Assembly (NCBI GenBank): GCA_003500955.1
Contig: DNQP01000020.1
Location: 703 to 17,946 of the forward strand
DNA: 17,244 bases
Source of the DNA: Curvibacter sp.
GTDB lineage: Bacteria > Pseudomonadota > Gammaproteobacteria > Burkholderiales > Burkholderiaceae_C
Direction: 5' to 3'
Part shown: positions 10,079 to 13,126 of the stretch, in pieces
How positions within the stretch are numbered: the stretch's first letter is position 1
How the letters are laid out: every line of letters begins with the position of its first letter
Translations under genes and position numbers: made by a program
Notes under the pieces: model-generated
The model's input: the letters and a program-made list of their open reading frames with translations, nothing else
Database searches by the model: none
What the model was told of the DNA's origin: nothing

Positions 10079-10651
10079 ATGTTTTCCCTGCGCGCCCGTC
10101 GGCTGGCGCTGGCCATCCTTTCGATGGCGGCCACCCTGTCGACGGCTCAAACCCTGACCACCAGCCCCGGCCCGCACGGCCTGGGGTCCGGTCTGTCATG
10201 GAGTCTGCGCAGCGACTACTCTCCCGGCCTCAAGTGGAACGCGCCTGAGCCCCGTACCGACGCCGGGCCCTCGGCCGACCTCCATCGCGCCAGCCTGTAC
10301 GCCGACTGGTTCCCGTTCACCGGCAACGGCTTTCGGGTCGTCGGCGGTCTGACCCTCAACGACACCTGGAGCAACCCGCTGGGCGGTACCCCTGCCCTCA
10401 GCGGCGCCTACCAACTGCGGCCCCGGACCACGACCTACCTGGGCATAGGCTACGGTTCGCATGGTGTGTTGGGCAAGGGCCTGGGCTTCTACGCCGACAT
10501 GGGCGTGTCGATGGGCGCGGCGTCCGACAACGACAGCGGCCTGAACGGCATGCCGGCCACGGGCTTCGAAGGCTGGCGTACCCAGCAGAACGGCTGGCTG
10601 GGCTTTCGCTACCTGCCCAGCGTCTCGCTGGGCCTGATCTACCGCTACTAA
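10079..10651 (+). CDS. Small exported beta-barrel-like outer-membrane protein
   Basis: A 190-aa protein. Residues 1-23 form a signal peptide (MFSLRARRLALAILSMAA.., cleavage probably after STA). The mature part is rich in Gly, Ser, Thr and aromatic residues in alternating patterns (RASLYADWFPF, FRVVGGLTLND, TTTYLGIGYGSH, GLGFYADMGVSMG, WLGFRYLPSVSLGLIYRY). It ends in an aromatic residue, the usual BAM recognition signal of outer-membrane barrels. At about 167 mature residues it could form an 8-stranded barrel. GAGGAA at 10068-10073 gives a good ribosome-binding site for ATG 10079. The family is unassigned by me. The stop codon's last base is also the first base of the inverted-repeat element that follows. 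Confidence 0.85.
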   Translation: MFSLRARRLALAILSMAATLSTAQTLTTSPGPHGLGSGLSWSLRSDYSPGLKWNAPEPRTDAGPSADLHRASLYADWFPFTGNGFRVVGGLTLNDTWSNPLGGTPALSGAYQLRPRTTTYLGIGYGSHGVLGKGLGFYADMGVSMGAASDNDSGLNGMPATGFEGWRTQQNGWLGFRYLPSVSLGLIYRY

Positions 10652-10918
10652 GCGCCTGCCCACGCTCCCATAGGGGCCGCGCAAGCACCTTGCCGGGATG
10701 AGATGCAAGGCGCAAAACGAAGCTGGGCAGACGCCCAGCGAGGCTTTGCAACGCCGCAGACCACCCGGCAAGGTGCTTGCCCTTCGGGTTGGGGCGAAAT
10801 CGGGCGATTTGCCCACCAAATCCCTTGCATGGGCATGCGCCCATGCGGCGTGATCTTGGCGGCCAACTCATCCCGATTGCGCCCCAACGCGGCCCCTATG
10901 GGAACGTGGGCAGGCGCT
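10651..10918. repeat. 268-bp nested inverted-repeat element (MITE-like or cloverleaf)
   Basis: The outer arms 10651-10681 and 10888-10918 are 31-base inverted repeats with one mismatch. Directly inside the left arm, 10681-10697 pairs perfectly over 17 bases with 10764-10780. Next, CCC-TTC-GGG (10780-10788) is a mini-hairpin. Then 10789-10804 pairs with 10872-10887 (one mismatch), abutting the right outer arm. Each branch ends in a perfect small hairpin: GCTGGGC/GCCCAGC (10722-10739) and GCATGGGC/GCCCATGC (10827-10846). The whole element can fold like a cloverleaf as DNA or RNA. It has no convincing ORF and no clear target-site duplication. It fills the gap between two convergent genes and its right arm encodes the last six codons and the stop of the M48 gene. 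I cannot name the family. Confidence 0.85.
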
Positions 10919-11756
10919 GACCGCTCGTGCGCGCCCGCTCGTACAGCGGCATCACCTTGGGCAGGTTCTGCTCGATCTCGGCGATGCGCGTCTTGCCCGC
11001 CGGATGGGTGGACAGCCACTGCGGCGGCGCGCCCTTGCTGGCCGCGCTCATCTTCTGCCACAGCGTCACGCCGGCGCGCGGGTCGTAGCCAGCCCGTGCG
11101 GCCAGCTCCATGCCCACGAGGTCGGCCTCGGTCTCGTCGCTGCGGCTGAAGCTCAGCACGGCCAGATTGGCGCCGCCGCGCGCCACACCGTCCGTCAGCC
11201 GGGGGTCGATGCCCAGCCAGGCCGAGAGCACGGCGCCGCCGAGGCGGGCCACGCCTTCGGTCACGGCGCTTTTGCCCATGCGCTCGCGCGCGTGCTCGCG
11301 CAGCGCGTGGGCGATCTCGTGGCCCATGATCATCGCGACCTCGTCGTCCGTCAGCTGCAGCTGGTCCAGGATGCCGGTGTAGAAGGCGATCTTGCCGCCG
11401 GGCATGCAGTAGGCGTTGATCTGCTTCGAGCCGATCAGGTTGACCTCCCACTGCCAGTTCCGCGCCCGCGGGTTCCAGGGCAGGGCGTGCGGGATGATGC
11501 GCTGGGCGATGGCGCGCAGGCGTTGGAGCTGGGGATGGTCGGGCGGCGCCAGCGCGCGCTTCTCGGCCGCGGCACTCAGCTGCTGGCGGTATTGCTGCAG
11601 CGCCAGGCGCTCCACCTCCTCGGCCGGCGCCAGTTTGGTGAACGCGGAGTTCTTGCCCACGTCCACACCTTCGCGCGCCTCGGGCGCGGCATGGCTGGCC
11701 CCGGCCAGCAGCAGGGCCGCCACAGTCAGCGCGAGGCGTCGGGTCAGCAGTGTCAT
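10896..11756 (-). CDS. Exported M48-family zinc metallopeptidase
   Basis: A 286-aa protein with a signal peptide (about 1-23, cleavage near ASHA) and an M48 (HtpX/BepA/LoiP-like) catalytic domain, so it is a periplasmic or outer-membrane-associated protease, probably in envelope quality control. HEIAH (146-150) supplies two zinc histidines and the catalytic Glu; E210 in DETEADLVG is the likely third ligand. NAYCMPGGKIAFYTG (114-128) is a conserved M48 block, and WLSTHPAGKTRIAEI (247-261) is the usual C-terminal motif. No lipobox cysteine is seen and no TPR region follows. ATG 11756 was chosen because the signal peptide begins there. The last residues and the TAG stop are encoded by the right arm of the inverted-repeat element, so the original C-terminus may have been replaced. 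Confidence 0.93.
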   Translation of the reverse strand: MTLLTRRLALTVAALLLAGASHAAPEAREGVDVGKNSAFTKLAPAEEVERLALQQYRQQLSAAAEKRALAPPDHPQLQRLRAIAQRIIPHALPWNPRARNWQWEVNLIGSKQINAYCMPGGKIAFYTGILDQLQLTDDEVAMIMGHEIAHALREHARERMGKSAVTEGVARLGGAVLSAWLGIDPRLTDGVARGGANLAVLSFSRSDETEADLVGMELAARAGYDPRAGVTLWQKMSAASKGAPPQWLSTHPAGKTRIAEIEQNLPKVMPLYERARTSGQRLPTFP

Positions 11757-11779
11757 GGTGGGCAGGATCTTGCCGTGGC

Positions 11780-13126
11780 ATGCGTATGATGCCCGGCATG
11801 CTCCCAAGTGCGCCCGAAAGCCCCCAAGTCAAGCCTTCCTGGGGCGCCACGCTGCGCGTCTACCTCGAACCCGCCACCCTGCGCATGCTGGCGCTGGGCT
11901 TCGCCGCCGGCCTGCCCCTGCTGCTGGTGCTGGGGACCTTGAGCTTCCGCCTGCGCGAGGCGGGCATCAGCCGGGCCACCATAGGCGAACTCAGCTGGGT
12001 GGGGCTGGCCTACGCCTTCAAGTGGGCCTGGGCCCCGCTGGTGGACCGGGTGCCGCTGCCCGGCCTGACCCGCTGGCTGGGCCGCCGGCGCAGCTGGCTG
12101 CTGCTGTCGCAGTTCGCCATCATGGCCGGGCTGATCGGCATGGCGCTGGCCAACCCGCAGCAGGGCCTAGCGATCCTCGTCTGGTGCGCGCTGATCGTGG
12201 CCTTCGCCTCGGCCACGCAGGACATCGCGCTCGACGCCTACCGCATTGAATCGGCCGGCAGCGAAAGGCAAGCCGCGCTGGCCGCGGCCTACCAGACGGG
12301 CTACCGCGTGGCCATGATCTGGGCCGGTGCCGGCGTGCTCTGGCTGGCGGCACGCGCCGAGCTGCAGGCCACGGGCTACCAGAATGCGGCCTGGACCACG
12401 GCCTACCTCGTGATGGCCGCCAGCATGCTGCCCGGCGTGCTCACCGTGCTGCTCTCGCCCGAGCCGGCACGGCGCGAGCTGCCGCCGGCGCGCAACGCGG
12501 CCGAGTGGCTGCGGGGCGCGCTGGTCGAGCCCTTTGCCGACTTCCTGCGCCGCTACAAATGGCAGGCCGCGCTGATCCTCGCCCTGATCGCGGTCTACCG
12601 CATCAGCGACGTGGTCATGGGCATCATGGCCAATCCCTTCTATGTGGACATGGGCTACAGCAAGGACGAGGTAGCCGCCGTGACCAAGGTCTACGGTGTG
12701 ATCATGACCCTGGTGGGCGCCTTCGTCGGCGGCGTGCTGGCCCTGCGCCTGGGCGTGATGCGCGTGCTCATGCTGGGCGCCGTGCTCAGCGCCGCCAGCA
12801 ACCTGCTCTTCGCCTGGCTGGCCGGTCACGGCCACGATGTACACGCGCTGATCTTCGTGATCTCGGCCGACAACCTCTCCAGCGGCATCGCCTCGGCGGC
12901 CTTCATCGCCTATCTGTCGAGCCTGACCAACATCAGCTACTCGGCAACGCAGTACGCCCTGTTCAGCTCCATGATGCTGCTCGCCCCCAAGTTCATCGCC
13001 GGCTTCTCGGGCCATTACGTGGACGCCTACGGCTACAGCCAGTTCTTTGTCTCCACCGCCCTGCTCGGCCTGCCGGTGCTGCTGCTGGTGGCGCTGGCCG
13101 CACGCGCGCAGCGCGCGCCGACCTGA
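11780..13126 (+). CDS. ampG: AmpG-family muropeptide permease
   Basis: An MFS transporter of about 448 aa with 12 or more hydrophobic segments. AmpG imports GlcNAc-anhydroMurNAc peptides across the inner membrane for peptidoglycan recycling, and in many bacteria thereby affects beta-lactamase induction. Recognisable AmpG stretches are the N-terminal GFAAGLPLLLVLGTLSF, IGELSWVGLAYAFKWAWAPL, the GRRRSWLL loop, ATQDIALDAYRIE, and near the C-terminus FIAYLSSLTNISYSATQYALFSS. The start is uncertain: ATGs at 11780, 11786, 11789 and 11798 are in frame; AGGA (11764-11767) best serves 11780, although the spacing is long. A TATGAT at 11785-11790 could even be a -10 box, which would favour a start at 11798 or later. 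The gene diverges from the M48 peptidase with 23 bases between starts. Confidence 0.93.
   Translation: MRMMPGMLPSAPESPQVKPSWGATLRVYLEPATLRMLALGFAAGLPLLLVLGTLSFRLREAGISRATIGELSWVGLAYAFKWAWAPLVDRVPLPGLTRWLGRRRSWLLLSQFAIMAGLIGMALANPQQGLAILVWCALIVAFASATQDIALDAYRIESAGSERQAALAAAYQTGYRVAMIWAGAGVLWLAARAELQATGYQNAAWTTAYLVMAASMLPGVLTVLLSPEPARRELPPARNAAEWLRGALVEPFADFLRRYKWQAALILALIAVYRISDVVMGIMANPFYVDMGYSKDEVAAVTKVYGVIMTLVGAFVGGVLALRLGVMRVLMLGAVLSAASNLLFAWLAGHGHDVHALIFVISADNLSSGIASAAFIAYLSSLTNISYSATQYALFSSMMLLAPKFIAGFSGHYVDAYGYSQFFVSTALLGLPVLLLVALAARAQRAPT

Follow-up and report, generated by a model that had tools for sequence, protein, structure and literature searches.

The window analyzed here, which is the whole stretch of 17,244 nt from a Curvibacter sp. 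genome, carries a mobile element of 266 bp between two convergent genes (Table 1). The upstream gene gave no match in a Pfam search, and the TAA with which it ends terminates an open frame of 195 codons. The gene converging on it encodes a Peptidase_M48 protein that is present in all 26 genomes of the genus, the one under study included.

Table 1. Features of the element and of its neighboring genes, in window coordinates.
Feature	Coordinates	Strand	Basis or remark
Upstream gene, 190 aa	10079-10651	+	stop codon is the insertion target
Left flanking TNA (TAA)	10649-10651	+	stop codon of the upstream gene; junction compared with the empty sites in G017 (L122) and G005 (L138)
Mobile cloverleaf element	10652-10917	+	missing in congeneric genomes with both flanking genes retained
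Left arm / terminal inverted repeat	10652-10680	+	23-copy consensus starts GAGCCTGTTCACGGTCTC
Left branch, 100 nt	10681-10780	+	MFE structure, covariation
Core hairpin unit (GCAAGGCGCA...TTTGCAACGCCGC)	10693-10771	+	covariance model R1, E 1.1e-18 (this core, G000:C28:11395-11473, is itself among the 26 sequences used to build R1)
Mini-hairpin CC-TTC-GG, within CCC-TTC-GGG	10781-10787	+	MFE structure
Right branch, 101 nt	10788-10888	+	MFE structure; related elements have cores in inverted pairs
Right arm / terminal inverted repeat	10889-10917	+	arm complementarity, MFE structure
Right flanking TNA (TGA)	10918-10920	+	junction comparison with empty sites
Convergent Peptidase_M48 gene (start codon not settled)	10896-11807	-	Pfam PF01435

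An initial annotation of this DNA had described a cloverleaf-like arrangement of inverted repeats between the two genes. We found that both the stems and the cloverleaf plan are borne out, far above chance, by arm complementarity, by the MFE structure and by comparison with shuffled sequences. The arms (10651-10681 and 10888-10918) are 97% complementary over 31 nt, the left branch has a perfectly paired stem of 17 nt, and the stem of the right branch (10785-10804 and 10872-10891) is 90% complementary over 20 nt. The MFE structure places the outer stem, the left branch (100 nt), the mini-hairpin (7 nt) and the right branch (101 nt) in this order. Folding of 291 nt around the element gave -113.6 kcal/mol as DNA (z -12.0) and -196.4 kcal/mol as RNA (z -13.9), and none of 200 shuffled controls was as stable with either type of folding. 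The span originally given for the structure, 10651-10918, holds overall except for its outermost bases, which belong to the flanking TNA triplets, and the element is therefore delimited here as 10652-10917.

Insertion at TNA triplets and gene ends

Two genomes of the same genus (G017 and G005) contain the same convergent gene pair with no element between the genes, two others (G019 and G023) have both genes without the element at greater divergence, and in G013 an arm-like remnant lies at the window site. Among the M48 loci that were fetched, the whole element was matched at the window locus only. At the junction, G017 and G005 have the TGA with which the upstream gene stops, whereas the window has TAA-element-TGA. 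We read the window flanks as a 3-bp duplication of a TNA target with one later base change, the left triplet being TGA in the relatives and TAA in the window. The insertion removed the original stop codon of the M48 gene, whose last seven codons and stop now span the junction and the right arm (10896-10920, by sequence comparison), and its protein gained a new seven-residue tail.

Empty and reduced sites were also found elsewhere. Site L062 lies where a short gene of G019 ends. Of the 17 loci aligned across this junction, 14 are uninterrupted, with TAA as the empty-site triplet in 10 of them and TAG in 4; the remaining loci carry 11 additional bases (L381) or 28 additional bases (L394) or have diverged (L396). 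The extra 11 nt of L381 adjoin a CTAG, and the extra bases of L381 and L394, found where this gene ends in other species, are perhaps scars of other elements. At site L032 just the two arms remain in G014, and at site L035 one arm remains in G019. Filled sites thus have TNA flanks and empty sites a single copy of the triplet, which is the pattern of target-site duplication expected of a MITE and not that of the REP/RAYT type, in which insertion occurs without target duplication. Among 23 full copies with the same end type as the window copy (type A), both 3-bp flanks are TNA in 14, the flanks are identical in 7, and neither flank is TNA in 2 (L034 and L065). We read non-identical flanks as decay of the duplication.

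When the positions of these copies were compared with open frames, the flanking triplet in 11 of the 23 type A copies proved to coincide exactly with the stop codon that ends a frame of 100 codons or more, against 14% in a null set of 1122 TNA sites in the flanks (p=1e-4). Nearly all copies (22/23) lie within -45 to +12 nt of the end of such a frame (null 33%), and frame ends are present on both sides in 7 of 23 (null 4%). More weight is due to the exact-stop figure, because avoidance of gene interiors contributes to such proximity and because some open frames of GC-rich DNA are not genes. Since TAA and TGA stops are themselves TNA triplets, insertion at these sites keeps the upstream gene intact.

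A dispersed family with near-constant geometry and variable ends

A BLAST search with the element (E<=1e-5) returned matches in 35 of 149 genomes, the window's own included. Within the genus these are full or nearly full copies with 86-91% identity; other genera have copies of 73-76% identity over most of the length, and elsewhere shorter pieces are found. The same query matched 1 of 72,556 plasmid records and 0 of 50,697 phage records, while a query with the core matched 6 and 0 of these records, respectively. The own draft genome contains one close copy by BLAST and 17 core matches (E<=1e-3) to R1, a covariance model built from 26 sequences of the left-branch core, in which the modeled core measures 79-82 nt. 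Across the order, R1 detected the core in 90 of 200 genomes and 56 of 109 genera (E<=1e-4, own included), with copy counts that are lower bounds because at most 23 candidates were scored per genome. Across the class it was detected in 36 of 185 genomes, 35 of them outside the order (E<=1e-6). Carriers among the matches listed include Acidovorax, Polaromonas, Simplicispira, Verminephrobacter, Castellaniella, a Bordetella MAG and Methylobacillus.

The three-branched plan was shared by 55 of 58 elements with resolved ends. This plan consists of an outer stem of 26-33 pairs (about 29 bp), a left branch of 92-104 nt (about 100), a mini-hairpin of 7-11 nt and a right branch of 95-104 nt (about 101), the last with the exception of two elements (79 and 169 nt). 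The motif CCC-N3/4-GGG was present in all 58. The departures are L119, which forms one long hairpin, and L065 and L069, in which the mini-hairpin is fused with the left branch. The 58 elements are a non-random set, as 36 were obtained through similarity to the window, 10 came from other loci (BLAST core pieces, the end pattern and R1) and 12 came from 20 class-wide loci fetched by R1 alone. Those 20 loci comprised 14 cloverleafs, 4 other forms and 2 that could not be resolved; two of the cloverleafs (L452 and L458) were excluded from the 58 as near-copies of L451 and L457. Most of one branch is missing in L111 and L112, and about 70 extra nt of hairpins are present in the right branch of L064, L067, L078, L045 and L083. 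The copies L078 and L066 occupy the same site with and without the extra hairpins, respectively. In several related elements the right branch is a second core on the opposite strand, with the paired R1 matches about 102-106 nt apart, and we accordingly read the right branch of the window copy as a putative second core unit that has diverged in inverted orientation.

The ends differ among elements around this common interior. We observed an end type GAGCCTGTTCACGRTC flanked by TNA, types GGGAAGGTCTGAACAAGTC or GGGACCCTCTGCATAAC, some with CTAG flanks, a type GGCGTCGAGAAACAATAA with TAA or TTA, and a further type CTAGTGTACTGCG. These are examples and not a census, as automatic typing gave no ends at 19 of 40 loci ("no core" at 15, "no arms" at 4) and weak arms were set aside. 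The elements in G134 (L187 and L436-L442), with ends GGCGTCGAGAAACAATAA and flanks TAA or TTA, are about 97% identical and several lie at contig ends; their similarity suggests recent activity with these other ends.

Proposed mobilization and maintenance of the fold

Insertion sequences (ISs) with similar ends occur in the same bacterial family and were found in G089, G042, G038, G029 and G103 in searches with PF13340 (60 genomes) and PF01609 (14 genomes). In G089 an 843-bp IS (L406) with ends GAACCTGTTCAAAGTCTC has TGA on both sides, and its protein pieces scored 143 and 96 bits against NCBIfam IS5_3 (cut-off 110). The L428-group IS occurs at 8 loci in G042, with the end GGGCCTGTTCACG visible in 7, and encodes two protein pieces of 99 bits each to IS5_3, under the cut-off of 110. 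The ISs found in G038 (L407 and L412) have ends similar to other end types of the element, and L412 exceeds the IS5_4 cut-off; the similarity of ends is looser for a multi-copy IS5_4 element in G042 (L408). The initial annotation had proposed a search for a transposase with ends matching the 31-base arms. Similar IS ends were found in other genomes, and an end-pattern search of 12 genomes found no IS with exactly the end sequence of the window. This search yielded 73 sites against 17 for a reversed control pattern, and ten regions examined, of 20, contained solo arms, deletion derivatives and one full element. PF01609 at 1e-8 had no match in 8 of the 14 genomes searched, including the own genome and the copy-rich G016, and PF13340 at 1e-10 had none in these two genomes. 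The partner in the own genome may have been lost, may be missing from the draft or may be a transposase of another type. At positions 1478-2446 of L406, a shortened element copy that has type A ends adjoins the IS5-family IS; the two share a TGA target, in the arrangement TGA-IS-TGA-element-TGA. A solitary end of the element is found in L118, with an L428-type IS end at a distance of 1.1 kb.

We estimate a probability of roughly 0.8 that the element is a non-autonomous, MITE-like transposable element of about 266 bp. It is short, has terminal inverted repeats and lacks a transposase gene, and the dispersed copies, empty sites, TNA flanks and IS-like ends agree with the earlier proposal of a non-autonomous mobile element. 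Comparison of sequences demonstrates its insertion, dispersal, compensatory evolution and near-constant geometry. From the similar IS ends we infer, with support, mobilization in trans: IS5-family DDE transposases would cut and join the ends of about 20-30 bp and would duplicate a TNA target, for which TAA and TGA stops qualify. Between the ends, the two inverted hairpins and the mini-hairpin would allow a single strand to fold as a near-constant cloverleaf, and selection could act on this fold either in single-stranded DNA, while the element transposes or is replicated, or in RNA at the 3' ends of genes. The MITE mechanism alone does not explain the conserved cloverleaf, since simple MITEs need no paired interior.

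We assessed how the pairing has evolved in an alignment of the 23 full copies with 99 predicted pairs (A1). A1 omits L046 and 13 copies with another end type (type B), copies with no good arm pair (L039, L068 and L076), partial or altered copies (L042, L072 and L073) and the five copies with extra right-branch hairpins. Pairing is kept in 96.3% of A1 cells, compared with 86.0% when shuffled and 34-41% when slid, and double (compensatory) changes occur at 56 of the 99 pairs, well above the 26 of the shuffled control. The covariation is very strong, and not at the random level that the initial annotation had named as refuting a conserved RNA; the large structured RNA raised there is a candidate form. 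The outer arms are more alike within an element (identity 0.943) than between elements (0.759), the best match to the left arm being the element's own right arm in 19 of 23 copies. Mismatches over the element are G.T in 76 cases versus A.C in 42 (p=0.002), and in the left branch 43 versus 15 (p=0.0003), mainly due to one nearly constant U.G pair; when this pair is excluded, the counts over the element are 56 and 42 (p=0.19). The nearly constant pair hints at the + strand as RNA, while the other mismatches point to neither strand nor to RNA. The unpaired bulge bases (A, with AAC opposite) do not vary among the 23 A1 copies; in the alignment A2 such invariance is partly built in, as its members were chosen by that motif. 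We infer that the fold is kept by selection.

What the fold is kept for can be read in several ways that are compatible with a mobile element, and the probability given above applies to the mobile-element reading. Tentatively, the folded cloverleaf might be the heritable unit, that is, an old structured lineage without a transposase that spans more than one order, keeps its three-branched fold (a stem of about 29 bp, a branch of about 100 nt, a 7-nt hairpin and a branch of about 101 nt) and swaps terminal repeats to parasitize different IS5-type transposases, its folded single strand (DNA or RNA) being recognized by a conserved factor via the bulged GCAAGGCGC/GCAACGCC motif. We consider it rather unlikely that the element is instead a host-selected DNA or RNA structure at gene 3' ends, beneficial as a bidirectional terminator, an mRNA 3' stabilizer, an RNase III site or a REP-like structure, with mobility merely a past origin. 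Placement at gene ends, on both sides in 7 of the 23 copies, the compensatory changes and the left-branch excess of G.T over A.C, mostly from one pair, would be consistent with such a function, as would the one intact copy common to two species at the same site (L066 and L078) and the transcription of the BRE repeat region as bprJ in Bordetella pertussis (PMC3110155, in its section on the repeat). However, several sites are not common to the species compared, remnants without branches persist at orthologous sites (L403 and L404), and G.T and A.C mismatches are in balance across the whole element once that one pair is left out.

Alternatively, arm complementarity may have arisen by mutation, with template switching during replication copying one arm onto the other. 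This would account for arms that vary among copies, even within one genome, yet match each other; it is nonetheless doubtful, as correction of a palindrome should erase bulges, whereas the A and AAC bulges are invariant in A1, and the branch lengths are nearly constant. It is very improbable that we are dealing with a REP/BIME-type element moved by a Y1 single-strand transposase (RAYT, IS200/IS605), despite the many intergenic, hairpin-rich copies. HUH/Y1 transposases are not known to make a target duplication, and the earlier suggestion of a substrate for a single-strand transposase was not supported, as the flanks are in keeping with such a duplication and the ends are similar to those of IS5 elements of the DDE type. 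A one-off fold-back palindrome, for which the initial annotation had expected a single copy without relatives and to which the one close BLAST copy in the draft genome would correspond, is practically excluded by 17 R1 cores in the host, full copies in relatives and a dispersed family with matches in 35 of 149 genomes. The MITE-like element remains our preferred reading.

Relation to known repeats

The BRE, a repeat of about 90 bp (75-91 bp) in Bordetella and other betaproteobacteria, was described as mostly intergenic, present in a transcribed region (bprJ) and possibly mobile (Hot et al., 2011; PMC3110155, section on the BRE). The core resembles it as a dispersed, mostly intergenic repeat of similar length (modeled core 79-82 nt), and Bordetella, Polaromonas, Acidovorax, Verminephrobacter and Rhodoferax are common to both among the matches listed. 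In Polaromonas sp. JS666, 29 BREs were counted according to that section, and we obtained 23 R1 matches. The left core hairpin is very probably the BRE, as judged from genera, length and JS666 copy number and not from the BRE sequence. The BRE section of that paper does not mention ends, target duplication, fold, a second inverted unit, a transposase or a preference for stop codons.

The Correia/NEMIS elements (CREE) of Neisseria are likewise non-autonomous, with inverted repeats and target duplication; in the parts of PMC2649163 that concern them they number more than 100 copies, are mostly 153-157 or 104-108 bp, often lie 5' of genes and form a hairpin cleavable by RNase III. Unlike these, the element described here has a three-branched near-constant fold, lies at gene 3' ends and has several end types. 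IS-derived MITEs also have IS-like ends and a duplication without a transposase gene (as treated in part of PMC10969869), whereas the element here conserves its interior too, while its ends vary. In the literature searched, with most subscription papers outside its scope, neither the cloverleaf nor its ends nor its insertion at stop codons is described. We regard as new the whole-element architecture, the near-constant geometry, the insertion at stop codons and the combination of one kind of interior with differing end types, which extends to other orders. An obscure repeat from 2011 would in this way become a mobile element whose ends, target and architecture are defined. It shows a route by which insertion at stop codons spares the upstream gene, and it offers an evolving near-constant fold whose reason can now be tested. 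The covariance model allows annotation of intergenic DNA that has so far been nameless.

The element shares strong covariation with Rfam families, none of which reaches its gathering score on the window. Relaxed Rfam matches (best MIR918, 33.7 bits vs. 268 required) look like chance hairpin matches. A second fold-back element, at positions 28-172 of L098 (ends GAGGCTGAGAACTTTT), contains an Rfam sX9 match of 50.9 bits (gathering 44), and L340 in G019 is a core-bearing element with ends similar to GAGGCTGAGAACTTTT. The sX9 family, filed in Rfam as a Xanthomonas sRNA, may be a mobile-element hairpin.
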